Virus record (IMG/VR): IMGVR_UViG_3300008110_000239
Span: 1 to 31,941 of that record
DNA length: 31,941 nucleotides
DNA from: a virus
Direction: 5' to 3' (one strand)
The position numbers and the translations under genes were made by a program. The notes under the pieces are model-generated. The model did not search any database and had not been told where the DNA came from. It saw only the letters and a list, made by a program, of their open reading frames with translations. Position 1 is the stretch's first letter, and the number at the start of each line of letters is the position of its first letter. Shown piece by piece: positions 2,057 through 13,900 of this stretch.

Positions 2057-2064
2057 TATATTTG
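2057..2064 (+). promoter_or_regulatory. Bacteroidota -7-like box before the first structured leader
   Basis: TATATTTG fits the TAnnTTTG -7 box. The P1 arm of the leader RNA begins three bases later, so the transcript would start at or inside the structure. No TTG -33 element is seen at the usual distance, so host polymerase may need a phage activator, or the match may be chance in AT-rich DNA. Confidence 0.4.
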
Positions 2065-2067
2065 CAA

Positions 2068-2161
2068 TAGCTTACACCGTATGAAGAAATTTAAAATATA
2101 CCAATCCCTTAGCATAGCCCATTCGGGCGACGGTGTAAGCTACTTAGCTTTGTGGGTTGGT
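2068..2161 (+). ncRNA. Pseudoknotted leader RNA, copy A (upstream of ibrB-like gene)
   Basis: P1 is a perfect 13-bp long-range stem: 2068-2080 (TAGCTTACACCGT) with 2130-2142. P2 pairs ACCAA 2100-2104 with TTGGT 2157-2161 and CCC 2106-2108 with GGG 2154-2156, with T2105 bulged. As P2 links the P1 loop to sequence beyond P1, the fold is an H-type pseudoknot. P3 is a GCCC/GGGC hairpin at 2117-2128. The linker 2081-2099 contains AAATTTAAAA; GCTTTG lies between P1 and P2. The start codon follows P2 by 11 bases. The two related copies at 4558 and 6198 support the fold by covariation. A role in translation control of the gene at 2173 is inferred from position. Confidence 0.6.
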
Positions 2162-2176
2162 TATTTTTATTTATGA
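2081..2176 (+). CDS. Possible 31-residue leader peptide inside leader RNA copy A
   Basis: ATG at 2081 lies immediately after the 5' arm of P1 and opens a 31-codon frame (MKKFKIYQSL..., ending in a hydrophobic YLALWVGYFYL). Its TGA overlaps the downstream start as ATGA at 2173-2176, the coupling arrangement used by real gene pairs here. Copy B begins similarly (MKTKFKLI, then stop) and copy C has a lysine-rich 14-codon frame. A translating ribosome would open P1 and P2. It may be a regulatory leader peptide, or merely an open frame across a conserved RNA. Confidence 0.3.
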   Translation: MKKFKIYQSLSIAHSGDGVSYLALWVGYFYL

Positions 2177-3321
2177 TAGATGCCCAAAAACAAATTCTAC
2201 TAAAAAGAATTTCAGATTTCGCAAACGACATTAGCACTCTTATAATGAGTGAAAAAGTCGAAATGATTAATGAAGCACGTGCTATTCTGCACGCTGAAAG
2301 CCCATTCAAGAATGAACCCGTGGATTTTGTAAAGTGGGTGCATTGTGAAGATGTTGTAGGAAATGAGTACAACCCTAACAAAGTTGCACCTGTAGAGCTT
2401 GAGTTACTTGAGATTTCTATACAAAATGACGGATTTACGCAGCCCGTAGTTACGTTTCCAAATAACGGAAAAATAGAGGTTGTAGACGGCTTTCATAGGA
2501 CGCGAGTAAGTAAAGAATCTAAGATTGTTCGTGAACGAGTAATGGGTTACACTCCAACCGTTATAATCCGCAAAGAACAATCCGACAAAAACAACCGTAT
2601 TGCCTCAACAATTCGCCATAACCGGGCACGAGGCAAACACCAGATCGATGCGATGAGTGAGATTGTATTGGAATTAAAAAACCGTAACTGGAAGAACGAG
2701 CGGATTGCACGCGAACTCGGAATGGATGAAGAAGAAATTTTGCGTTTATGTCAGATTACAGGATTACAGGATATTTTTAAAGATGACGATTTTAGCAAGT
2801 CTTGGGAGGCGTCGGATTCCATTGCAAATTATACACCGCTTACTGACGAACTAAATGCAGATGAGGTTGAGCATTACCGCACGACCAACACGAGCGACCC
2901 GGAGCGCATATTCCACACGTTTGATAAATGGGAGTGCCACAAGGCTGGTTTCTATGCGTCCGGTTTGGATGGAATGAAAGCGGTGGACTGTGAGCGCGGT
3001 TTTGTCGGAATATTAACCGATGACGCTGTATTCCGTATAGCATTGCAAGGTGTTTTAGATAATTGGCCAAATAGCTGTGAACATTATCTTACCAACAAAG
3101 CTATGAATCGAATCGCATGGTTAGGCCAGGCGGCTGTGTGTTATGCTACCAGTATTCCCGCAAAATTTTCTTCTGCATGGGAGCAATTAACGCCCGAGCA
3201 AATGGACCGCGCAAATCAAACCGCTCTCGAATATCTCAATAAGTGGCGTGAGAAATATGGTCGCGAACCGATTACCATGGAAGAAGCCTTATCAATTGGA
3301 CGTCAAGTAAACATATATTAA
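2173..3321 (+). CDS. ibrB: ParB/Srx-like nuclease-domain protein, IbrB-like
   Basis: A 382-residue protein. Residues about 50-155 form a ParB/Srx-type domain: NEYNPNKV (65-72), DGFTQPVV (86-93), VVDGFHRTR (103-111) and RHNRARG (148-154) follow the order of the ParB nucleotide/DNA-binding box. Residues 165-200 form a helix-turn-helix (NERIARELGMDEEEIL). The C-terminal 180 residues are an added region I do not recognise. The gene stops three bases before an IbrA-like gene, and this ParB plus PAPS-reductase pairing is the ibrB-ibrA arrangement known from E. coli, where the pair was linked to expression of prophage eib genes; the biochemistry is unresolved. ATG 2173 is preferred over an in-frame ATG at 2152, which lies inside the leader RNA's P1-P2 segment. 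IbrB proteins I know of are shorter, so the C-terminal addition is unusual. Confidence 0.75.
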   Translation: MIDAQKQILLKRISDFANDISTLIMSEKVEMINEARAILHAESPFKNEPVDFVKWVHCEDVVGNEYNPNKVAPVELELLEISIQNDGFTQPVVTFPNNGKIEVVDGFHRTRVSKESKIVRERVMGYTPTVIIRKEQSDKNNRIASTIRHNRARGKHQIDAMSEIVLELKNRNWKNERIARELGMDEEEILRLCQITGLQDIFKDDDFSKSWEASDSIANYTPLTDELNADEVEHYRTTNTSDPERIFHTFDKWECHKAGFYASGLDGMKAVDCERGFVGILTDDAVFRIALQGVLDNWPNSCEHYLTNKAMNRIAWLGQAAVCYATSIPAKFSSAWEQLTPEQMDRANQTALEYLNKWREKYGREPITMEEALSIGRQVNIY

Positions 3322-3324
3322 GCT

Positions 3325-4533
3325 ATGGCAGGAAAATTATATAACGATAAAACAGTATTGCAGGCTAGCCGGGAGAGGGTAGCACAAACTTTTGATAACT
3401 TTCAGCGTATTTACATATCCTTTTCGGGCGGTAAAGACAGCTCAGTAATGACCCATTTGGTTTTACAGGAAGCGCGCCGACGTGGTAGAGTAGTGGGGTT
3501 ACTTATTATTGATTTAGAAGCTCAGTACGCTGACACCATTACTCACATTGAGCAAATGATAGAAATGTACGCCGACGTTATTGATTTGCATTGGGTTTGC
3601 GCTGAATTATTATTGAGAAATGCAGTTAGCAATTACCAACCTCGCTGGGTATGCTGGGATAAAGAAAAACAGGATGTTTGGGTAAGACCAATGCCAGAAA
3701 AAGCTGCCCGCTTAGATCAGTACCCATTTTACATTCCTAAAATGGAATTTGAAGAGTTTATGGTGATTTTTGGCGAGTGGTATTCGCAGCGATTAAATTG
3801 TGCGGCGTTTATCGGAATACGTGCCGACGAATCATTACACCGTTACCGTGCAATTACTTCACGTAAGGACGGTTTAATGTTCAATAATTGGAAGTGGTCC
3901 ACTAAAATGAGCGCCGGATTATTTAATATTTATCCTATTTACGACTGGCGTACAGAAGATATTTGGGTTTTTCATGGCAAATACCCGGAATTACCGCACA
4001 ATAAAGTGTACGATAAAATGATGATGGCCGGTGTTAAAATTAGTCAACAACGTTTATGCCAGCCTTATGGCGACGACCAGCGAAAAGGGTTGTGGCTTTA
4101 TCATATTTTAGAACCTGAAACGTGGTATAAATTAGTAGCCCGTGTGAATGGTGTAAATAGCGGCGCTCTGTATATTCAGGAAAACGGTAATATGACCGGC
4201 TACCACAAAATCACAAAACCAGACGGCCATACATGGCAATCATTCTGCAATCTTCTGCTTTCCACTATGCCTGGTAAAACAACTGAGCACTATAAAGAGC
4301 GTTTCAAAAAGTTTATTAAAGGCTGGCAGGATCGTGGATATTTAGTTATTCCAGACGAAGCGCCGGAAGATCTGGAAAGTAAGTGTTGGGTGCCTAGCTG
4401 GAGGCGAATGTGTAAAGTGATACTGCGAAATGATTATTGGTGCAAAGGCCTTGGCCAAACTCAGCCATTCAGTGAAGCGTATGGAAAATTTAAGGACATT
4501 AAAGCTAAAAGAAAGTTGCAATCCCAATTATAA
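3325..4533 (+). CDS. ibrA: PAPS-reductase-family PP-loop protein, IbrA-like
   Basis: A 402-residue protein with the PP-loop SFSGGKDSS at residues 32-40, the ATP-pyrophosphatase signature of PAPS/APS reductases and DndC-type proteins, then DLEAQY and, further on, IGIRADES and YPIYDWRTEDIW, which are typical of this superfamily. The C-terminal half (AGVKISQQRLCQPYGDD...) matches the DUF3440 extension of IbrA. The reaction is unknown; superfamily members activate a substrate by adenylation, often followed by sulfur transfer. Pairing with the ParB-like gene suggests one system, perhaps modifying DNA or RNA or controlling transcription; that is inference. Several cysteines are present but no obvious iron-sulfur cluster motif. 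It is last in its two-gene unit, and the next promoter box begins five bases after its stop. Confidence 0.8.
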   Translation: MAGKLYNDKTVLQASRERVAQTFDNFQRIYISFSGGKDSSVMTHLVLQEARRRGRVVGLLIIDLEAQYADTITHIEQMIEMYADVIDLHWVCAELLLRNAVSNYQPRWVCWDKEKQDVWVRPMPEKAARLDQYPFYIPKMEFEEFMVIFGEWYSQRLNCAAFIGIRADESLHRYRAITSRKDGLMFNNWKWSTKMSAGLFNIYPIYDWRTEDIWVFHGKYPELPHNKVYDKMMMAGVKISQQRLCQPYGDDQRKGLWLYHILEPETWYKLVARVNGVNSGALYIQENGNMTGYHKITKPDGHTWQSFCNLLLSTMPGKTTEHYKERFKKFIKGWQDRGYLVIPDEAPEDLESKCWVPSWRRMCKVILRNDYWCKGLGQTQPFSEAYGKFKDIKAKRKLQSQL

Positions 4534-4537
4534 TATT

Positions 4538-4545
4538 TATATTTA
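4538..4545 (+). promoter_or_regulatory. -7-like box before leader RNA copy B
   Basis: TATATTTA, one mismatch from TAnnTTTG, lies 12 bases before the P1 arm of leader copy B, the same order of elements as copy A. No convincing -33 TTG is seen. Chance matches are easy in this AT-rich gap, so support comes mainly from the repeated arrangement. Confidence 0.35.
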
Positions 4546-4557
4546 AGCCCACAAAAA

Positions 4558-4656
4558 ACCCACGCCATGAAAACCAAATTTAAACTTATTTAAAAACTGA
4601 CACCCTGAAAAGGCGGTATCTCCATTGGCGTGGGTGTGCTGCTTTGGAGGGGTGTC
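4558..4656 (+). ncRNA. Pseudoknotted leader RNA, copy B (upstream of helicase)
   Basis: P1 is ACCCACGCCA 4558-4567 paired perfectly with 4626-4635. P2 pairs GACACCC 4599-4605 in the P1 loop with GGGTGTC 4650-4656 beyond P1 (7 bp plus a T-G wobble), giving an H-type pseudoknot. The linker contains AAATTTAAACTTATTTAA, close to copies A and C; TGCTTTGG lies between P1 and P2, and the helicase ATG is six bases after P2. P3 is weak or absent in this copy. An 8-codon frame (4567-4593, MKTKFKLI) starts on the last base of the P1 arm. Stem sequences are unrelated to copies A and C although pairing is preserved. Confidence 0.6.
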
Positions 4657-4662
4657 TTTATT

Positions 4663-6132
4663 ATGAACCACCTAAGACCATACCAGATTTCAGCCATTAA
4701 TGACCTCCGAGAGGCTTATAAGTACAATAAGCGTGTTTTACTGGTTATGCCAACGGGCGCTGGCAAAACGGTTGTTTTTTCTCAAATTTGCGCATCTGCT
4801 ATTGAGCGTGATAAGGTGGTGCTTATACTTTCCGACAGGACGGAGATTTTTACTCAAACAATAAAATCAATTGCCAAGCATGAAATTCCTATTTGTAAAA
4901 TAGATCCCGAAACAAAATATTTCCATAAAGACGCTAAATTATTTGTGGGAATGGTCGAAACTTTTAAGCGCAGGATGGACCAATTTGCGAGCGTTCCATT
5001 TGATTTGATAATTGTAGACGAAGCGCATAAAGCCGCTTTTAACAGGGTTTTTGATAAGTTTCCGGATGTAAGGGTATTGGGTTGTACCGCAACACCTGTC
5101 GGAAAAACATTACATAAATACTATTCAAAACTTATACAGTCTATTGACGTACCTGAATTGATTGAACAGGGTTACTTATCACCTTGTCGTGCTTATGAAA
5201 TGCAGGATTCTTTTGATGACTTAAAAACAGATACGACTGGTGAGTTCACCGATCAAAGTCTGTTTTCTCACTTCAATAAAAGTAAACTTTACGAAGGCGT
5301 TATCGAACAGTATTTGTTAAAGGTTAAAGGCAAAAAAACATTGATCTTTAATTGCAACATCCAGCACTCTTTAAACACAACCGCTGCGTTTAATGCTGCC
5401 GGTGTAAAATCTTACTGCATAACCTCCCAAACATCGAAAGAAGAAAGAGATTGGATTCTAAAAGAATATGACCGGGGAGCGTTTCACGTTCTTAACAATG
5501 CCAATATTTTAGTAGCCGGGTATGATAATCCCTCAATTGAGGTAATAATGATTAATCGGGCAATGGGTGTTATAAATCCTTTTTTGCAGGCTTGCGGTCG
5601 TGGCTCGCGTATTTACCCTGGTAAGGATTATTTTACAGTAATTGATTTTGGAGGGAACTTTACACGCCACGGCCTTTGGGATGAACGGCGCACATGGTCC
5701 ATAGCGCCTCCCAAAAAAAGCTCTCATAAAATAGGTGCCGCACCGGTGAAATCCTGCCCAGCCTGTTCCACCATGCTGCCGCCAACTCAAAAAGAATGCC
5801 CTTATTGTGGCTACCTATTCCAACCAAGCGAGAAAGAACTGGCAGAGGGTCGCTTGGTTGAGTTGACTAATAAGATAAGGGGCGGCATTCCTGGCCGTTA
5901 CGTATCTGATCTTACAATACCTGAACTCATAGAATGTGAACGAACCGGTCAATTAAAAGCTACTTACGTGTGGCGAATACTTAGGTCGCGCGGCGCAATG
6001 GATATTGGCGAATATGCTCGTATAAAAAAGTACAAAGACGCCTGGGTTATTCGCCAACTCGAGGCCATTGACCACGAGGGAACCGTTCAATTTATGGATA
6101 AAAAAATAAACGAAATTCAGATGTTACCATAA
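4663..6132 (+). CDS. SF2 DEAH-box helicase with zinc ribbon
   Basis: A 489-residue helicase of superfamily 2. LRPYQ (4-8), Walker A PTGAGKT (30-36), DEAH (119-122), TATP (142-145) and the arginine-finger motif QACGRGSR (309-316) appear in the standard order, so both RecA-like lobes are complete. A four-cysteine zinc ribbon follows (C365, C368, C379, C382), then a roughly 100-residue C-terminal region. This plan resembles phage UvsW/RadD-like DNA helicases that remodel branched DNA or help replication restart. ATG 4663 is chosen because it starts just before the conserved LRPYQ and just after the leader RNA; an in-frame upstream ATG at 4630 lies inside the P1 stem. It stands as its own unit between two leader RNAs, suggesting separately set expression. 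Confidence 0.88.
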   Translation: MNHLRPYQISAINDLREAYKYNKRVLLVMPTGAGKTVVFSQICASAIERDKVVLILSDRTEIFTQTIKSIAKHEIPICKIDPETKYFHKDAKLFVGMVETFKRRMDQFASVPFDLIIVDEAHKAAFNRVFDKFPDVRVLGCTATPVGKTLHKYYSKLIQSIDVPELIEQGYLSPCRAYEMQDSFDDLKTDTTGEFTDQSLFSHFNKSKLYEGVIEQYLLKVKGKKTLIFNCNIQHSLNTTAAFNAAGVKSYCITSQTSKEERDWILKEYDRGAFHVLNNANILVAGYDNPSIEVIMINRAMGVINPFLQACGRGSRIYPGKDYFTVIDFGGNFTRHGLWDERRTWSIAPPKKSSHKIGAAPVKSCPACSTMLPPTQKECPYCGYLFQPSEKELAEGRLVELTNKIRGGIPGRYVSDLTIPELIECERTGQLKATYVWRILRSRGAMDIGEYARIKKYKDAWVIRQLEAIDHEGTVQFMDKKINEIQMLP

Positions 6133-6172
6133 CTTTGTTGATAATTATCTACAAATCTATAAATTTTTTACA

Positions 6173-6180
6173 TACATTTA
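6173..6180 (+). promoter_or_regulatory. -7-like box before leader RNA copy C
   Basis: TACATTTA lies 17 bases before the 5' arm of P1 in leader copy C, repeating the box-then-structure order of copies A and B. The 65 bases between the helicase stop and the P1 arm hold nothing else I can support. No -33 TTG is found at standard spacing. Confidence 0.35.
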
Positions 6181-6197
6181 TACCCACACAAATGCTA

Positions 6198-6298
6198 TGC
6201 TAGGCAAAAAATCAAAAACTTATTTAAGAAAAAGTCATTAACGGGAGGCATCCGCAACGTTCGCGTTGTTTGCCTAGCAGCTTTATTTGCCTCCTGTT
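6198..6298 (+). ncRNA. Pseudoknotted leader RNA, copy C (upstream of zinc-ribbon/primase genes)
   Basis: P1 is TGCTAGGCAAA 6198-6208 paired perfectly with 6269-6279. P2 is the best of the three: 6240-6250 (AACGGGAGGCA) pairs with 6288-6298, 11 bp including one G-T. P3 is CAACG/CGTTG at 6255-6268 with a TTCG loop. The linker has AACTTATTTAA as in copy B, and GCTTTA separates P1 from P2. TTTGCC occurs both in the P1 3' arm and at 6286-6291, so GGCAAA of P1 could pair with either, allowing a switch. A lysine-rich 14-codon frame (6197-6241) starts one base before the P1 arm and stops at the beginning of P2. The next start codon is 18 bases after P2. Confidence 0.6.
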
Positions 6299-6316
6299 TT
6301 TGGCGACTTTTATATT

Positions 6317-6610
6317 ATGGAGCCATTTTTCACTCATACATGCCGTAAATGCGGGGTTACTGATGAAGCCAAATTTTACCATGCAGGCCCGCATTTAAAA
6401 CAAGTTTGTAATTTTTGCGGTTTCTATGTTAAGTTTTTTGATAAGTCAAAAGTTCCGGATGTAAAAGAGATTAAACTAAAAATATTTGCATTAGCCGATA
6501 AGAATTTAGAGGCTATAGAGACCGGTAAAAAAGAAATTGGCTTTGTTTCCGGACTTACGGGTTTGAATGAGAAATTACAGTACTTGAACCTTTATTTGCA
6601 TTTTAGATAA
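6317..6610 (+). CDS. Small zinc-ribbon protein
   Basis: A 97-residue protein. Two CxxC knuckles (CRKC at residues 9-12 and CNFC at about 31-34) form a zinc ribbon, followed by KFFDKSKVPDVKEIK and a helical C-terminal region. It has no signal or membrane segment. Similar small zinc-ribbon proteins occur next to phage primases and may bind nucleic acid, but I do not recognise a family. It lies three bases before the primase-ATPase gene and shares its leader RNA. ATG 6317 is chosen over 6287 because the latter falls in the 3' strand of the leader pseudoknot and would add a non-conserved-looking hydrophobic stretch. Confidence 0.7.
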   Translation: MEPFFTHTCRKCGVTDEAKFYHAGPHLKQVCNFCGFYVKFFDKSKVPDVKEIKLKIFALADKNLEAIETGKKEIGFVSGLTGLNEKLQYLNLYLHFR

Positions 6611-6613
6611 CAT

Positions 6614-8746
6614 ATGATTTCATTTTACAACCGCTTGCCTTCTAAGGGCCAACCGCACAAATCGGATGGAACTATGTCAATTGATGACTTTATAAGCAAT
6701 ATAAAGTTTGGTAAGTGGCGGGAATTGATTGAGCCTGTAAGGGCCGAAAAAGACAAGAAAAAACGCGATGAACTTAAAAGAAATCTAATTTCAGTCACTT
6801 GTTCAGGTGTTTTTAATGAACGCCGTGAAGATGTTCTTATCTCTCACAGCGGATTTTTATGCATCGACATAGATAATTTTACTGATAAATCCAGAATTAT
6901 CTCCGACCAATACACCTACGCCTGTTTCGATTCGGTTTCCGGATTAGGGTTTGCTGTCCTAGTAAAAGTTAATCCGAATAAGCATAAAGAATCTTTTTTA
7001 TTTATTCAGAAGCATTATTTTGATAATTATGGAATAGTAGTTGACCGAGCGCCTCAGAATGTTGCCTCGCTTAGATATGTAAGTTTTGACCCCCTTGTTG
7101 AAGTAAACCGAAAGTCAAAAATATCCAAGGTTTTATATGAACCAAAGAAACGCATACCGTCGCTCGCAATAGTTTTATCTGACGATAAGGTAAGTGAATA
7201 TGTAAAAGAGGCCGTGCAGCGCGGTCTTAATATTGCTGGCTCTTACTTTGATTATCTTAATTTATCTTTCGCCTTGGCACAGGGTTTTGGCGAAAACGGT
7301 CGCTCGTATTTTCATGCACTTAGTTCTCAGGACGCAAAATATAATTCTGTTCATGCTGACCGTCAATTTGATTTAGCATTAAAGCGTGGTAAAACAGGTG
7401 TAACTGTTGGTACATTTTACTATATGCTTAAACAGGCGGGGATTCAAATAAAAAATGATTCCAGTAAAGAGGTTGGTATAGTGGCAATAGCTAAAAAGGC
7501 AGGCCGAACAAAAGAAGCCGTTACTAAACAGTTAATTGAAATTAACGGCGTGAACGCAAAGACCGCCGCTACACTTGTTGATCAGGTTTTCTCTAGGGAT
7601 GACATTACTCTTAAAACCGTAACAGTTGATCCTGAACGTTTAATAGAATCCCTGGTTGAATGGATTACTCAAAACCACCTGCTTCGCAGGAATTGTTATA
7701 CTAAATTAATCGAAGAAAATGGCGCGGTTATAACTACTGAAAAGATGAACTCTATATACCTGCGCGCCCGAGCAGCATTTAACACGAGTGAAGTCACTTT
7801 TGATCTTATTAAGCGTGTTATTAACTCCGATTTTATTCCCACCTTTAACCCGATAACCGAATACATAGAGAAAAATTCTTATCGCAATTCCAACGGCAAC
7901 ATTCATGCGATAGCAACCACAATAAGTTCAGATACAAAAGGTAGTTATATGTTCCTTGAAAAATGGCTTTTGGGAATAATTGCCGTATACATGGGAAAGG
8001 CTGTCCGTTACCGTTTAGCTTTAGTTGGTAAGGGTAGAACGGGTAAAACGCAATGGTTTCGTAGACTGCTACCAACTGCTCTTAAATCCATGTATGGGGA
8101 ATCCTCTTTAGATGCAGGCAAGGATGACGAGTTATTAATGTGCCAAAAATTGGTACTAATGGATGATGAACTTTCATCAAAATCCAGAGTTGATGAAAAA
8201 AGGATAAAAAACCTAAGTTCTAAAAACACATTTTCTCTTCGTGTTCCTTATGGAACCCATAATGAAGATTTTAATCGACTTGCTATTCTTTGCGGCACAG
8301 CAAATGAAACAGATATTATTACCGATAGAACGGGTAATACTCGTTACCTGGTTATAAACGTGGATTCGATTAATCACGCTGCATACAACGAAATTGATAA
8401 AGATGAACTTTTCATGGAACTATACCGCACATACCTTGAACGCGGTCCTGAATGTTGGTATCTTAACGATACTGAGAATGAAGTTCTTATCGAGAGTTCG
8501 GATTCACACGTAGAAATAAATCCAGAACTTGAATTACTTCAAAAATACTTCCTACCACCAACAGAACACGGGTTTTTTACTGAAATGACAGCTACCGATA
8601 TTAAGGTCCACATAGAAACCCATTCCCGCCAGCAAATAAAATCCATGAAATTCTTTGGAATAGAACTTAAAAGGTATTTTGGTGAGGCCAAACGAACGGA
8701 AAAATCTCGATTATATCGGGTAATAATTAAGCAAAGCGGCAACTAA
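6614..8746 (+). CDS. Primase-like BT4734/VirE P-loop ATPase
   Basis: A 710-residue replication protein. The N-terminal part, about residues 50-180, resembles the BT4734-like N-terminal domain (SHSGFLCIDIDN, then CFDSVSGLGFAVLVKVN and the LRYVSFDP segment), a primase-polymerase-type fold in Bacteroidota mobile elements. The middle is helical. The C-terminal part is a VirE/VapE-type AAA ATPase with Walker A GKGRTGKT (472-479), Walker B LVLMDDEL (about 513-520), then FNRLAILCGTANE and a DRTGNTRYLVI arginine-finger segment. It probably primes and unwinds DNA at the phage origin. It ends the replication operon; its stop codon lies in the loop of a terminator hairpin. The CHC2 protein encoded at 1801 may complement it. 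Confidence 0.85.
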   Translation: MISFYNRLPSKGQPHKSDGTMSIDDFISNIKFGKWRELIEPVRAEKDKKKRDELKRNLISVTCSGVFNERREDVLISHSGFLCIDIDNFTDKSRIISDQYTYACFDSVSGLGFAVLVKVNPNKHKESFLFIQKHYFDNYGIVVDRAPQNVASLRYVSFDPLVEVNRKSKISKVLYEPKKRIPSLAIVLSDDKVSEYVKEAVQRGLNIAGSYFDYLNLSFALAQGFGENGRSYFHALSSQDAKYNSVHADRQFDLALKRGKTGVTVGTFYYMLKQAGIQIKNDSSKEVGIVAIAKKAGRTKEAVTKQLIEINGVNAKTAATLVDQVFSRDDITLKTVTVDPERLIESLVEWITQNHLLRRNCYTKLIEENGAVITTEKMNSIYLRARAAFNTSEVTFDLIKRVINSDFIPTFNPITEYIEKNSYRNSNGNIHAIATTISSDTKGSYMFLEKWLLGIIAVYMGKAVRYRLALVGKGRTGKTQWFRRLLPTALKSMYGESSLDAGKDDELLMCQKLVLMDDELSSKSRVDEKRIKNLSSKNTFSLRVPYGTHNEDFNRLAILCGTANETDIITDRTGNTRYLVINVDSINHAAYNEIDKDELFMELYRTYLERGPECWYLNDTENEVLIESSDSHVEINPELELLQKYFLPPTEHGFFTEMTATDIKVHIETHSRQQIKSMKFFGIELKRYFGEAKRTEKSRLYRVIIKQSGN

Positions 8747-8757
8747 GCCGCTTTTTT
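8734..8757 (+). terminator. Rho-independent terminator of the replication module
   Basis: AAGCGGC (8734-8740) and GCCGCTT (8747-8753) form a perfect 7-bp stem around a 6-base loop that contains the stop codon of the primase-ATPase gene. The stem runs into a T-rich tail to 8757. This is the clearest intrinsic terminator in the window and marks the end of the early/replication transcripts. Confidence 0.85.
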
Positions 8758-9044
8758 CTTGTCAAGGAATTTTTACGTGTCAGGATTATATTATTGAATA
8801 TCAGTAATTTGAGATAAGGCTGACAGTAATGACAGGAAAAAAATAATTTTTTTTTGTATAATGGAATACATATTATATTTATGTGCGTGTGTGTGTATAT
8901 ACGATTACTATATATATTTATATAAATATTATATTTTATTGTCATTATACTCTACAGGCCACGTTATTAAAGGCTGACATTAAATTTTTTCTTACGTCAT
9001 TTTAACGTCATTCAATTGTCATGTGTCAGTACCGTATTTAGTCT
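8758..9044. other. AT-rich control region with repeated TGTCA/TGACA-type motifs
   Basis: No gene is supported here. About ten TGTCA, TGACA or ACGTCA motifs occur, for example near 8760, 8778, 8821, 8830, 8940, 8974, 8995, 9006, 9018 and 9025. A 10-bp direct repeat AAGGCTGACA lies at 8816-8825 and 8970-8979, and ACGTCATT recurs at 8994 and 9005. The centre (8881-8940) is an alternating GT/TA tract that should melt easily. It separates the replication module from packaging genes, so it may be an operator array for the early-late switch or a replication origin. Both are inferences. Confidence 0.45.
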
Positions 9045-9423: not shown

Positions 9424-9493
9424 GGGCGGGTGGCCGAGAGGTTAGGCAAAGGGGTATTCTACCTTCACATTGGTTCGAATCCGATCCCGTCCA
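9424..9493 (+). tRNA. tRNA or tRNA-like element with aberrant anticodon arm
   Basis: A 70-nt cloverleaf is readable. The acceptor is GGGCGGG 9424-9430 with CCCGTCC 9486-9492 (one G-T), with discriminator A9493. The D arm is GCC/GGC, the T arm ATTGG-TTCGAAT-CCGAT with a canonical T loop. The anticodon arm is abnormal: a 5+7+5 reading (AAGGG-GTATTCT-ACCTT) has a mismatch and gives anticodon ATT with C37, while GGTA-TTC-TACC forms a stronger hairpin with a 3-base loop. The variable loop is only three bases and no CCA is encoded. It may be a decayed phage tRNA, or a tRNA mimic or processing site between packaging genes. Amino-acid identity cannot be assigned. Confidence 0.55.
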
Positions 9494-9510
9494 CTAGGCC
9501 TTATTTTAAA

Positions 9511-11572: not shown

Positions 11573-12577
11573 ATGCCTTATTTAATACTCCAAGATTACT
11601 ATTCCAGTATTCAGGATGCTAATTTGCAACAGGTCCTGGCAAGTGTAGACGCTTATCGATTGACTAAGCAGGCGACGGCTTTGGAGGAAATAAAATCCTA
11701 CTTGGTTCAAAAGTACGATATCAGTCAGGAATTTAAGGAAACACTAAAATACAGCTATACTGCAACGTACAACGCGCGTCAGTTGGTTTATCTGGATGCT
11801 GATGCATTTAGCCATGCTGGTACTTATGCGCTGAACGCTGTAGTTGTTTATACCGGTAACGTTTATTACTGCAAATTAGCCGTCGTTACTCCGGGCGTTT
11901 TTAGCCTAACTAACTGGACGCTTTTAGGTCCACAATATTCATTTTACTACATCCCGTTACCTTACCCAGAGTTTGATTACACCGCGTTTTATGCTCAGGA
12001 TGACATTGTATTTTGGGAAAATAAAGTATACACTTGTCTTAAGCCAACAGTAGTGCCGATCGCTCAACAATACGACACTTACTCAAAAGTTCCTTTTCAA
12101 AATCAATTTCCCGGAATAAAAGTAGATCAATGGAGTGCAGGTGTTCCCTACTCAGTATCTGGCTTATGGCCTACGGCAATCCCAGGAGATTTTACGGCAT
12201 GGTCAAATGTGACAATTTACACAACTGGTCAGCGCGTCTATTTTAATTCGATAATTTACCAGGCTCAAGCCAATAGCACAAATATTGAGCCATGCACCGA
12301 CATAACAAAATGGTTACCCGTTTCATTTATATCGGGCGACAACCGAAATCCACAATTAGTCGAATTAAATGTGCACATAGCAATTTACAAGCTTTCAACT
12401 CGAATTTCACCGCGCAACATCCCTGATATTTGGGTAAAGAACTACGACGATGCCATTAAATGGTTAAAGAATGCGGCCAGGGGCAATGATATAACAGCCA
12501 ATTTACCGATGAAACAACCAGATCAAGGGTTTAGAACCCGTTGGGGTGGACACACAAAACAGCAAAATACTTACTAA
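11573..12577 (+). CDS. Mu gp36-like (DUF1320) neck adaptor with inserted carbohydrate-binding-like modules
   Basis: A 334-residue protein. Residues 1-50 are helical (DANLQQVLASVDAYRL...ALEEIKSYL) and residues 254-312 contain SGDNRNPQLVEL, VHIAIYKLSTRI and YDDAIKWLKNAARG. Together these resemble the two halves of Mu gp36/DUF1320, a head-tail connector. Between them are three beta modules (about 82-120, 135-190 and 207-250) with a repeated plan: a turn, V-Y-x-x-N-x-V-Y-x-C/A, and a closing W. This resembles chitin/cellulose-binding (CBM5/12-type) folds. They probably decorate the neck and may touch host glycans. It abuts the portal gene with no gap. The adaptor assignment rests on pattern and position; the CBM likeness is structural inference. 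Confidence 0.65.
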   Translation: MPYLILQDYYSSIQDANLQQVLASVDAYRLTKQATALEEIKSYLVQKYDISQEFKETLKYSYTATYNARQLVYLDADAFSHAGTYALNAVVVYTGNVYYCKLAVVTPGVFSLTNWTLLGPQYSFYYIPLPYPEFDYTAFYAQDDIVFWENKVYTCLKPTVVPIAQQYDTYSKVPFQNQFPGIKVDQWSAGVPYSVSGLWPTAIPGDFTAWSNVTIYTTGQRVYFNSIIYQAQANSTNIEPCTDITKWLPVSFISGDNRNPQLVELNVHIAIYKLSTRISPRNIPDIWVKNYDDAIKWLKNAARGNDITANLPMKQPDQGFRTRWGGHTKQQNTY

Positions 12578-13900
12578 ATGAGCGTCACATCTCGTATAAA
12601 AAACTTTTTTGGCATCACCCCTACTACAATAGGCATTACTTCCACGCGCCCGGATAATAAGCACGATCTTAACCGGCATATTGTCCGGATGAAGTTGGAC
12701 CGGATAAAGCAGGACATTGCTTTGTGGCGCGAAGCGATTAGTCAGGCTGAGAATGTTTACTACCCTAACCGTCTAGCCTTACAAAGGCTATACTTAGATA
12801 CCGTTCTTAATGGTCACGTTAGGGCGTGTATGCGTGAGCGTAAAGATTTGACATTGCTAAAAGACTTTGAATTTCAATCTCCGAATGGTGAGGTCAATAA
12901 AAAGATTACAGACCTCATGCACGCCAGTTGGTTCTATGGATTAATGGAATTTATTATAGACGCTCAATTTTACGGTTACTCTTTGATTAACTGGACCGAG
13001 GTTGAGAAAAGCATTATTAAGGATATCCAAATAATTAAACGTTGGAATATTAGCCCGGACAGACTGCAAGTATTATCGTTTCCGGGCGCATTTAACGGAA
13101 CTAGCATATTTGATCCCGCAGATGTTGATTGGTCGCTATGGGTGCCAACTCCTTCAGAAGATGGTATAAGTAATTGCGGTTGGGGATTATTGCGATCCGT
13201 GGCACCTTATGAAATTTACCTCCGAAATTTAATGGGCTTTAATGGCGACTATGTTGAAACGTTTGCCCAACCCTTTAGGCACGGAAAGACTGATAAAACA
13301 AATGGACCAGAGCGTGACGAGTTTGAAAAATCGGTAGCCAACATGGGCGCAATGGCGTACGCTATTACGGACCCATTGGATGACATAGAATTTAAAGATA
13401 CTACCGGAGGCGGTAACGGATATAAATCCTACGAATCATTTCAGGAACGAAATGAGAAAACTATTTCAAAGCTCTTTTTTGGGCATTCTGATGCTATTGA
13501 TAGCAGAACAGGTAAATTAGGCAGCGAACAAGGTGAAGATAGTCCTGTTGCCAAAGCAATACGCCGTACCGAGGCAAGGGACGCAAGATTCGTTGAAACG
13601 GTTATTAACGATTCTCTTATTGAGAAACTAAATAATTTAGGGTTTGGAATACCAGCCGGAACTAAATTTGTTTTACTTAACAACAAAGAGAAACACGAAG
13701 CGCAAGAGGCCGAAACCGCACAAAATCAAGCCGTAGCAACAGTAGTTAAAACTTTAAACGATTCAGGCTATGAAACGACGCCTGAATGGATCACTAAGCA
13801 AACAAATATTCCTATTACCAAAAAGCCAGAGCCAAAACCTGCAACAGGTTTTAATCCGGCTATAAAAAACAAATTGGAGGAAGTATATGGAAAGCTTTAA
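12578..13900 (+). CDS. Portal protein, Mu gp29-like (DUF935)
   Basis: A 440-residue portal. Features of the Mu gp29 family include the central LDTVLNGHVRACMRERK, a wing region with FIIDAQFYGYSLINW, an APYEIYLRNLMGFNGDY segment, and the C-terminal QERNEKTISKLFFGHSDAIDSRTGKLGSEQGEDS stem region followed by helical EARDARFVETVINDSL. The dodecameric portal sits at one capsid vertex, where the terminase docks and DNA passes. The C-terminus ends in a proline/lysine-rich tail. It overlaps the minor-head gene by 14 bases, as in Mu-like gene order. Confidence 0.85.
   Translation: MSVTSRIKNFFGITPTTIGITSTRPDNKHDLNRHIVRMKLDRIKQDIALWREAISQAENVYYPNRLALQRLYLDTVLNGHVRACMRERKDLTLLKDFEFQSPNGEVNKKITDLMHASWFYGLMEFIIDAQFYGYSLINWTEVEKSIIKDIQIIKRWNISPDRLQVLSFPGAFNGTSIFDPADVDWSLWVPTPSEDGISNCGWGLLRSVAPYEIYLRNLMGFNGDYVETFAQPFRHGKTDKTNGPERDEFEKSVANMGAMAYAITDPLDDIEFKDTTGGGNGYKSYESFQERNEKTISKLFFGHSDAIDSRTGKLGSEQGEDSPVAKAIRRTEARDARFVETVINDSLIEKLNNLGFGIPAGTKFVLLNNKEKHEAQEAETAQNQAVATVVKTLNDSGYETTPEWITKQTNIPITKKPEPKPATGFNPAIKNKLEEVYGKL

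Follow-up and report, generated by a model that had tools for sequence, protein, structure and literature searches.

The leader of phage T4 gene 32, a DNA-replication gene, carries an H-type pseudoknot that lies well upstream of the start codon and nucleates gp32. In E. coli pyrBI, the gene for the leader peptide contains a terminator that its translation can suppress (PMC4824070), and structured 5' leaders and leader-peptide attenuators have been reported upstream of host amino-acid operons in Flavobacterium psychrophilum (PMC9723704). Here we analyze three leader RNAs, designated A, B and C, in a virus genome (IMG/VR record IMGVR_UViG_3300008110_000239; its 31,941 bases are the whole stretch examined and are called the window), whose relatives are Bacteroidota phages and prophages. 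We lean, if only slightly, toward reading these leaders as transcription attenuators that head replication and homing-endonuclease units, comprising a translation-coupled, pyrBI-like subset and possessing an added lock between the 5' end and the hairpin loop.

Like the T4 gene 32 operator, the phage leaders place an H-type pseudoknot ahead of a phage DNA-replication gene, but their pseudoknot abuts the start codon and is followed by a U-tract. The resemblance to pyrBI would be an intrinsic terminator situated inside a leader open reading frame (ORF) just before the first gene (PMC4824070); however, the leader ORF occurs in only a subset of the phage leaders, the genes are those of phage replication and homing endonucleases, and pairing of a 5' strand with a loop, which is the conserved feature of the phage leaders, is not described for pyrBI in PMC4824070. 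As in pT181 repC and pIP501 repR (PMC5703833), the leader of a replication gene contains an upstream pairing strand and ends in a terminator-like hairpin just 5' of the start, although the pT181 pre-emptor pairs with the 5' arm of the terminator whereas the upstream strand of the phage leaders pairs with the loop. The F. psychrophilum attenuators (PMC9723704) are likewise structured leaders from the same phylum, but the present ones precede phage genes and form pseudoknots or kissing loops. The parts are of known kinds (attenuator, pseudoknot, kissing loop), and their combination in phage replication leaders is found neither in Rfam nor in the literature searched, where we looked for phage pseudoknot, attenuator or kissing-loop leaders and found no description of the class. 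The control of gene expression in Bacteroidota phages has been little described; these leaders provide a concrete and widespread RNA element at the heads of replication units.

Pseudoknot leaders in the window

A preliminary description of this DNA had proposed three pseudoknot leaders that share one RNA architecture and head the units of a replication module, and all of the strands that it named are present. The leaders precede ATGs at 2173, 4663 and 6317, and each forms an H-type pseudoknot in which helix P1 (13, 10 and 11 perfect pairs in A, B and C, respectively) crosses helix P2, which ends 11, 6 and 18 nucleotides (nt) before the ATG. Their combined P1 and P2 scores (51, 47 and 54) were matched by none of 300 dinucleotide shuffles per leader, and when the entire window was scanned for pseudoknots in general, only the three leaders and one weak match within a coding region emerged. 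The stems of the three leaders have no sequence in common. Their features are as follows.

2057-2064, + strand: leader A, Bacteroidota -7 promoter box, TATATTTG, a good match; predicted transcription start at about 2069
2068-2080, + strand: leader A, P1 5' strand, with which the predicted transcript begins at its very 5' end
2081-2176, + strand: leader A, leader ORF MKKFKIYQSLSIAHSGDGVSYLALWVGYFYL, 31 codons; its stop overlaps the main start (ATGA)
2100-2108, + strand: leader A, P2 5' strand, ACCAA(U)CCC, with one bulged U
2117-2128, + strand: leader A, P3 hairpin, GCCCauucGGGC / GCCCATTCGGGC
2130-2142, + strand: leader A, P1 3' strand, lying within the P2-closed loop
2154-2161, + strand: leader A, P2 3' strand, GGGUUGGU, 8 pairs with 2100-2108
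2162-2172, + strand: leader A, U-tract, UAUUUUUAUUU, running up to the start codon
4558-4567, + strand: leader B, P1 5' strand
4567-4593, + strand: leader B, short ORF MKTKFKLI, which stops upstream of P2 and may be due to chance
4599-4606, + strand: leader B, P2 5' strand, 7 pairs (4599-4605/4650-4656) and a possible U-G pair
4610-4619, + strand: leader B, P4 5' strand, partner 4636-4645; a GAA/GGA internal loop connects it to P2
4626-4635, + strand: leader B, P1 3' strand, in the apical region of the hairpin
4636-4645, + strand: leader B, P4 3' strand, which includes GCTTT
4649-4656, + strand: leader B, P2 3' strand
4657-4662, + strand: leader B, tail UUUAUU, short and U-rich, which would make a weak terminator tail
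6198-6208, + strand: leader C, P1 5' strand
6240-6250, + strand: leader C, P2 5' strand
6253-6268, + strand: leader C, P3 hairpin, CGCAACGTTCGCGTTG
6269-6279, + strand: leader C, P1 3' strand, 11 pairs with 6198-6208
6288-6298, + strand: leader C, P2 3' strand, which leads into a U5 tract

In leader C, an outer helix (6229-6236/6305-6311) is also possible. The P2 strands lie where they had been described, with a bulged U to be added in leader A, and the H-type topology holds for A, B and C; but the earlier account took no notice of the P4 helix, of the U-tract that begins where P2 ends, of the leader ORF traversing the hairpin as far as the main start, or of the 5' hairpin by which, in most relatives, the pseudoknot becomes a kissing-loop complex. 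Nor do the short unpaired segments that it listed as recurrent characterize the class: AAATTTAAA occurs only in A (as AAATTTAAAA) and B, and AACTTATTTAA only in B and C, and neither is general in other phages. The supposed GCTTTR linker is present as GCTTT in B, but there it is predicted to form the 3' strand of P4, in the helix AAGGCGGUAU/GUGCUGCUUU; and because a GCTTT-anchored scan of relatives returned essentially only the window's own leaders, it is not a class feature.

Compensatory changes and distribution

If the stems covary, as had been proposed from the three copies alone, relatives should preserve pairing rather than sequence. In other phages, orthologous primase leaders do retain P1 and P2 although the sequences differ, and covariation of P1 is evident in two formal alignments, the counts of which include P1 as the pseudoknot helix. 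Among 10 primase-family leaders, 81.8% of cells are paired, compared with 29-52% when slid, and nine pairs have changed on both sides (shuffled mean 4.2; 0/500), with P1 being 95% paired and containing three double-changed pairs. For three homologous primase leaders, the paired fraction is 97% (34-46% when slid), and each of the four helices contains double-changed pairs (seven in total), of which P1, itself 100% paired, has three. The curated leaders contain 55 interior G-U pairs but only 3 A-C mismatches, an excess indicating that the functional strand is the sense RNA and not the DNA. Crossing P1 and P2 helices with compensatory changes across homologs identify these elements, on comparative grounds, as probable structured cis-regulatory leader RNAs.

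Upstream regions were scanned first in about 1.9 Mb and afterward in a further 0.86 Mb of contigs fetched separately, which uncovered approximately 58 leaders of this kind in Bacteroidota phages and prophages and probably also in Firmicutes phages. Two of these, at about 11597-11738 and 12655-12801 of NC_048838, are in the cultured Flavobacterium phage vB_FspS_mymlan6-1, which infects Flavobacterium sp. LMO6; they lie before an HNH endonuclease and before the helicase-primase unit, which makes the element directly testable. Other named host records include a Pedobacter prophage region and a Chitinophaga metagenome-assembled genome. The box-anchored scan was noisy at low thresholds (51 real vs. 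23 shuffled matches at scores of at least 42, and 13 vs. 2 at scores of at least 48), and isolated low-scoring matches were not trusted. A close protein search with the window's helicase gave no matches. Most primase orthologs (46-55% protein identity) that have a gap before the gene are preceded by a crossing P1/P2 leader of unrelated sequence, in contrast to four that adjoin the preceding ORF without a gap and have no leader; orthologs whose start abuts or overlaps an upstream ORF lack the leader, and most IbrB orthologs lack one because the gene sits inside an operon. An ortholog of the 97-amino-acid gene that follows leader C (in L094) also has its own pseudoknot leader, again of unrelated sequence.

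Such rapid divergence of the stems, evident also in L105 and L107, where leader identity is 71% and coding identity 91%, is reminiscent of the antisense-RNA attenuators of pT181 repC and pIP501 repR, in which the terminator is released when a counter-transcribed RNA occupies the 5' pairing strand. Under that explanation, the loop sequences would be specificity determinants that diverge quickly, and the outline of leader, upstream pre-emptor strand and terminator just 5' of a replication gene is indeed alike (PMC5703833). But the upstream strand does not pair with the 5' arm of the terminator, antisense -7 boxes show no significant excess (9 vs. 5.8 +/- 2.1 expected), and some leader families are better conserved than the gene; we regard antisense control as decidedly improbable. 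In L097 and L004, for example, the primase leaders are 94% identical and the first 900 bases of the gene only 75%, which may reflect either recombination or a strong constraint on the leader.

A riboswitch, or an autoregulatory operator of the T4 gene 32 type, would be recognized by a ligand or protein acting in trans, and the presence of several leaders per genome before related functions could be accommodated by such a factor, as could a possible tandem G-A internal loop (GGA/GAA) that recurs in some hairpins. However, no Rfam family matches the leaders, either in an Rfam 15 covariance-model search of the window (E<1) or at the gathering threshold for 11 other leader loci, and recognition of this sort is disfavored by the lack of any unpaired sequence conserved throughout the class. 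It is, in our estimation, improbable. The internal loop itself is a symmetric 3x3 loop (GGA/GAA or CGA/GAA) between P2 and P4, and was seen in several unrelated leaders, those of L118, L026, L092 (at 4180) and leader B.

Promoter, hairpin and U-tract

The class occupies the interval between a promoter and a start codon. A -7 box lies upstream of P1 in 25 of 38 leaders, compared with 2.5 expected, in a set that was partly selected for the box. The published Bacteroidota spacing places this box at -12 to -5 (PMC6847099), such that transcription from TATATTTG would begin at about 2069 and P1 would constitute the 5' end of the message. With the predicted start in, or a few bases before, P1, the fold would close the 5' end of the transcript, as might be expected if it served only for 5'-end protection or yielded a stable small-RNA-like by-product with no regulated switch. 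This explanation leaves the fixed distance to the start codon and the frame of the leader ORF unaccounted for, and we consider it very improbable indeed.

At the other end of the leader, the P2 3' strand is followed directly by a U-tract. For 30 leaders picked regardless of their tails, a T-run of at least four occurs in 63%, compared with 12% of 329 background ORF starts, and one of at least five in 43%, compared with 5%. Leaders A and C have the stem followed by the U-tract, which is weak in B. The U-tract makes the core hairpin resemble an intrinsic terminator, and the succession of promoter, terminator-like hairpin, U-tract and start codon is the layout of an attenuator.

The preliminary description had instead envisaged a translational control point, and the leaders do fold just before the start, the distance from the end of P2 to the ATG being 4-27 nt in every member. 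A translational operator would require that a leader folded 6-18 nt before the AUG block 30S binding in a host that does not rely on Shine-Dalgarno pairing, and that it be opened by a ribosome on the leader ORF or by a phage protein, with the U-tract as an unstructured landing site. That structure near the start reduces translation in F. johnsoniae (PMC6847099), and that leader ORF stops overlap the main start, would both be in keeping with this possibility. Yet a T-run immediately after a stem is the signature of a terminator and is atypical for the contigs concerned, in which ORF starts are rich in A (44% A, 30% T); and at the few loci with GGAG between the U-tract and the ATG, which from their sequences probably belong to Firmicutes phages, this Shine-Dalgarno-like motif is placed outside the stem (L058, L076). 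Translational control appears rather unlikely, transcription attenuation being the better fit to the U-tract, the P4 helix, the 5' hairpin and the leader ORF, and the original proposal was incomplete.

The strands flanking the P1 3' strand often pair as P4, such that the loop corresponds exactly to the 7-nt P1 strand (L105, L005, L019, L065 and L028). The overall excess of P4 is modest (mean score 8.8 vs. 6.6 shuffled), and it covaries where homologs align. In most relatives, the P1 5' strand is presented in the loop of a 5' hairpin, P0, which by a lenient criterion is present in 40 of 58 leaders (25.7 expected); B and C lack it, the four-pair call in A consists of A-T pairs only, and leaders without it have longer P1 helices. 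With medians of -22.6 kcal/mol for the hairpin domain and -14.9 kcal/mol for the P1 form, the former is the more stable in nearly all leaders, whereas the nested folds of A and C favor the P1 form, suggesting that the two compete.

A variant leader upstream of primase genes has a T7-T10 tract after the stem (L212, L213, L222, L224 and L249; less exactly in L229, L239, L240, L250 and L251), and the stem in the best examples is GAGGGG/CCCCTC. Its loop (e.g., TTCACTGTT) pairs with a strand beyond the U-tract (AACAGTGAA), a pairing that could form only in readthrough RNA.

Leader ORF and proposed conditional termination

In leader A and about ten relatives, an ORF begins in or beside P1 and remains open across the hairpin to the main ATG. 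In 9 of 29 leaders, the frame of the first ATG has its stop between -12 and +3 relative to the main ATG, as do none of 58 control frames (p = 2e-5), and the frame is open to -40 or beyond in 20 of 29 leaders compared with 8 of 58 control frames (p = 4e-7). The leader of a GIY-YIG endonuclease gene in L077 (at about 10151) has a 16-bp P1; its ORF is in frame with the gene, which could therefore have a longer N-terminus.

Pairing, covariation, the U-tract, the position of the promoter and the openness of the ORF are observed; from these we infer that the hairpin would terminate transcription, that keeping P1 open would go with readthrough, that a ribosome would be the signal, and that the scheme would extend through the class. 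The message would begin at the unit's own promoter and, shortly ahead of the first start codon, would contain an intrinsic terminator that acts conditionally (P2 with P4 or P3, followed by the U-tract). The loop of this hairpin, the P1 3' strand, complements the message's own 5' end. This 5' partner would be single-stranded in the window leaders and in the loop of the 5' hairpin in most relatives, and P1 could form during transcription as soon as its 3' strand emerges, which is before P2 can close. Where the leader ORF is present (leader A and the ten or so relatives), early loading of a ribosome would keep P1 open and block closure of P2, such that the polymerase would read through and the ribosome would pass on to the main ORF where stop and start overlap. 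Without ribosome loading, P1 would mask the start of the leader ORF and the hairpin would close. Members without a long leader ORF would need some other trigger, or may be fixed attenuators.

Several observations weigh against this model. The tail of B (UUUAUU) is poor for a terminator, the P2 stems of the window leaders (7-11 bp) close large loops, and a standard terminator scan did not report the window leaders. Because P1 and P2 are topologically compatible, P1 may stabilize the hairpin instead of opposing it. The only -7 boxes of leaders B and C are of the TTTA type, and the long leader ORF through the hairpin is missing from both, as it is from most kissing-loop members, which limits the generality of ribosome control. 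In addition, the leader ORF test was designed after examples had been seen and some of the pooled leaders are related, and the independently fetched set alone is small (2/7 vs. 1/14).

If the attenuator reading is correct, the phage would couple expression of its replication genes to host translation without a dedicated regulator; and because the stem sequences differ in each copy, the leaders would form a naturally orthogonal family of RNA switches. A broader proposition, which we offer tentatively and consider doubtful, is that they represent an undescribed, sequence-independent class of RNA switch in phages from one bacterial phylum at a minimum and probably from two, in which the loop of a terminator hairpin kisses or pseudoknots with the 5' end of its own transcript and gates early replication genes by ribosome loading relative to polymerase speed, with no need for a ligand or protein.

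Genes downstream of the leaders

Across the class, the assigned families downstream are primases, SF2 and PIF1 helicases, ERF, DUF6291, IbrB, and HNH or GIY-YIG endonucleases. In the window, the genes are as follows.

2173-3321, + strand: IbrB-like ParB-domain protein, 382 amino acids, first gene after leader A
from 3325: PAPS-reductase/DUF3440 (IbrA-like) gene, following the IbrB-like gene
4663-6132, + strand: SF2 helicase (ResIII/Helicase_C), after leader B
6317-6610, + strand: 97-amino-acid Cys-rich protein, first gene after leader C
6614-8746: BT4734/PriCT_2/VapE primase, following the Cys-rich gene

The pair formed by the first two genes (2173-4533; ParB domain plus PAPS reductase/DUF3440) resides within a phage replication module, and relatives of the IbrA-like protein are encoded in 553 viral contigs. 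At 9424-9494, in overlap with a predicted ORF at 9430, ARAGORN reports a tRNA-Asn whose anticodon, att, is unusual; the call is possibly spurious. Beyond the primase gene, the window contains repeated short motifs (TGACAG/CTGACA, 8755-9000), and repeats occupy the same position in L003 (4018-4291) and L005 (3052-3208), where the unit is GGTGTAAAG, and in L092, a Flavobacterium phage (8157-9065; GGTTACC). These repeats are iteron-like and are possibly replication origins.

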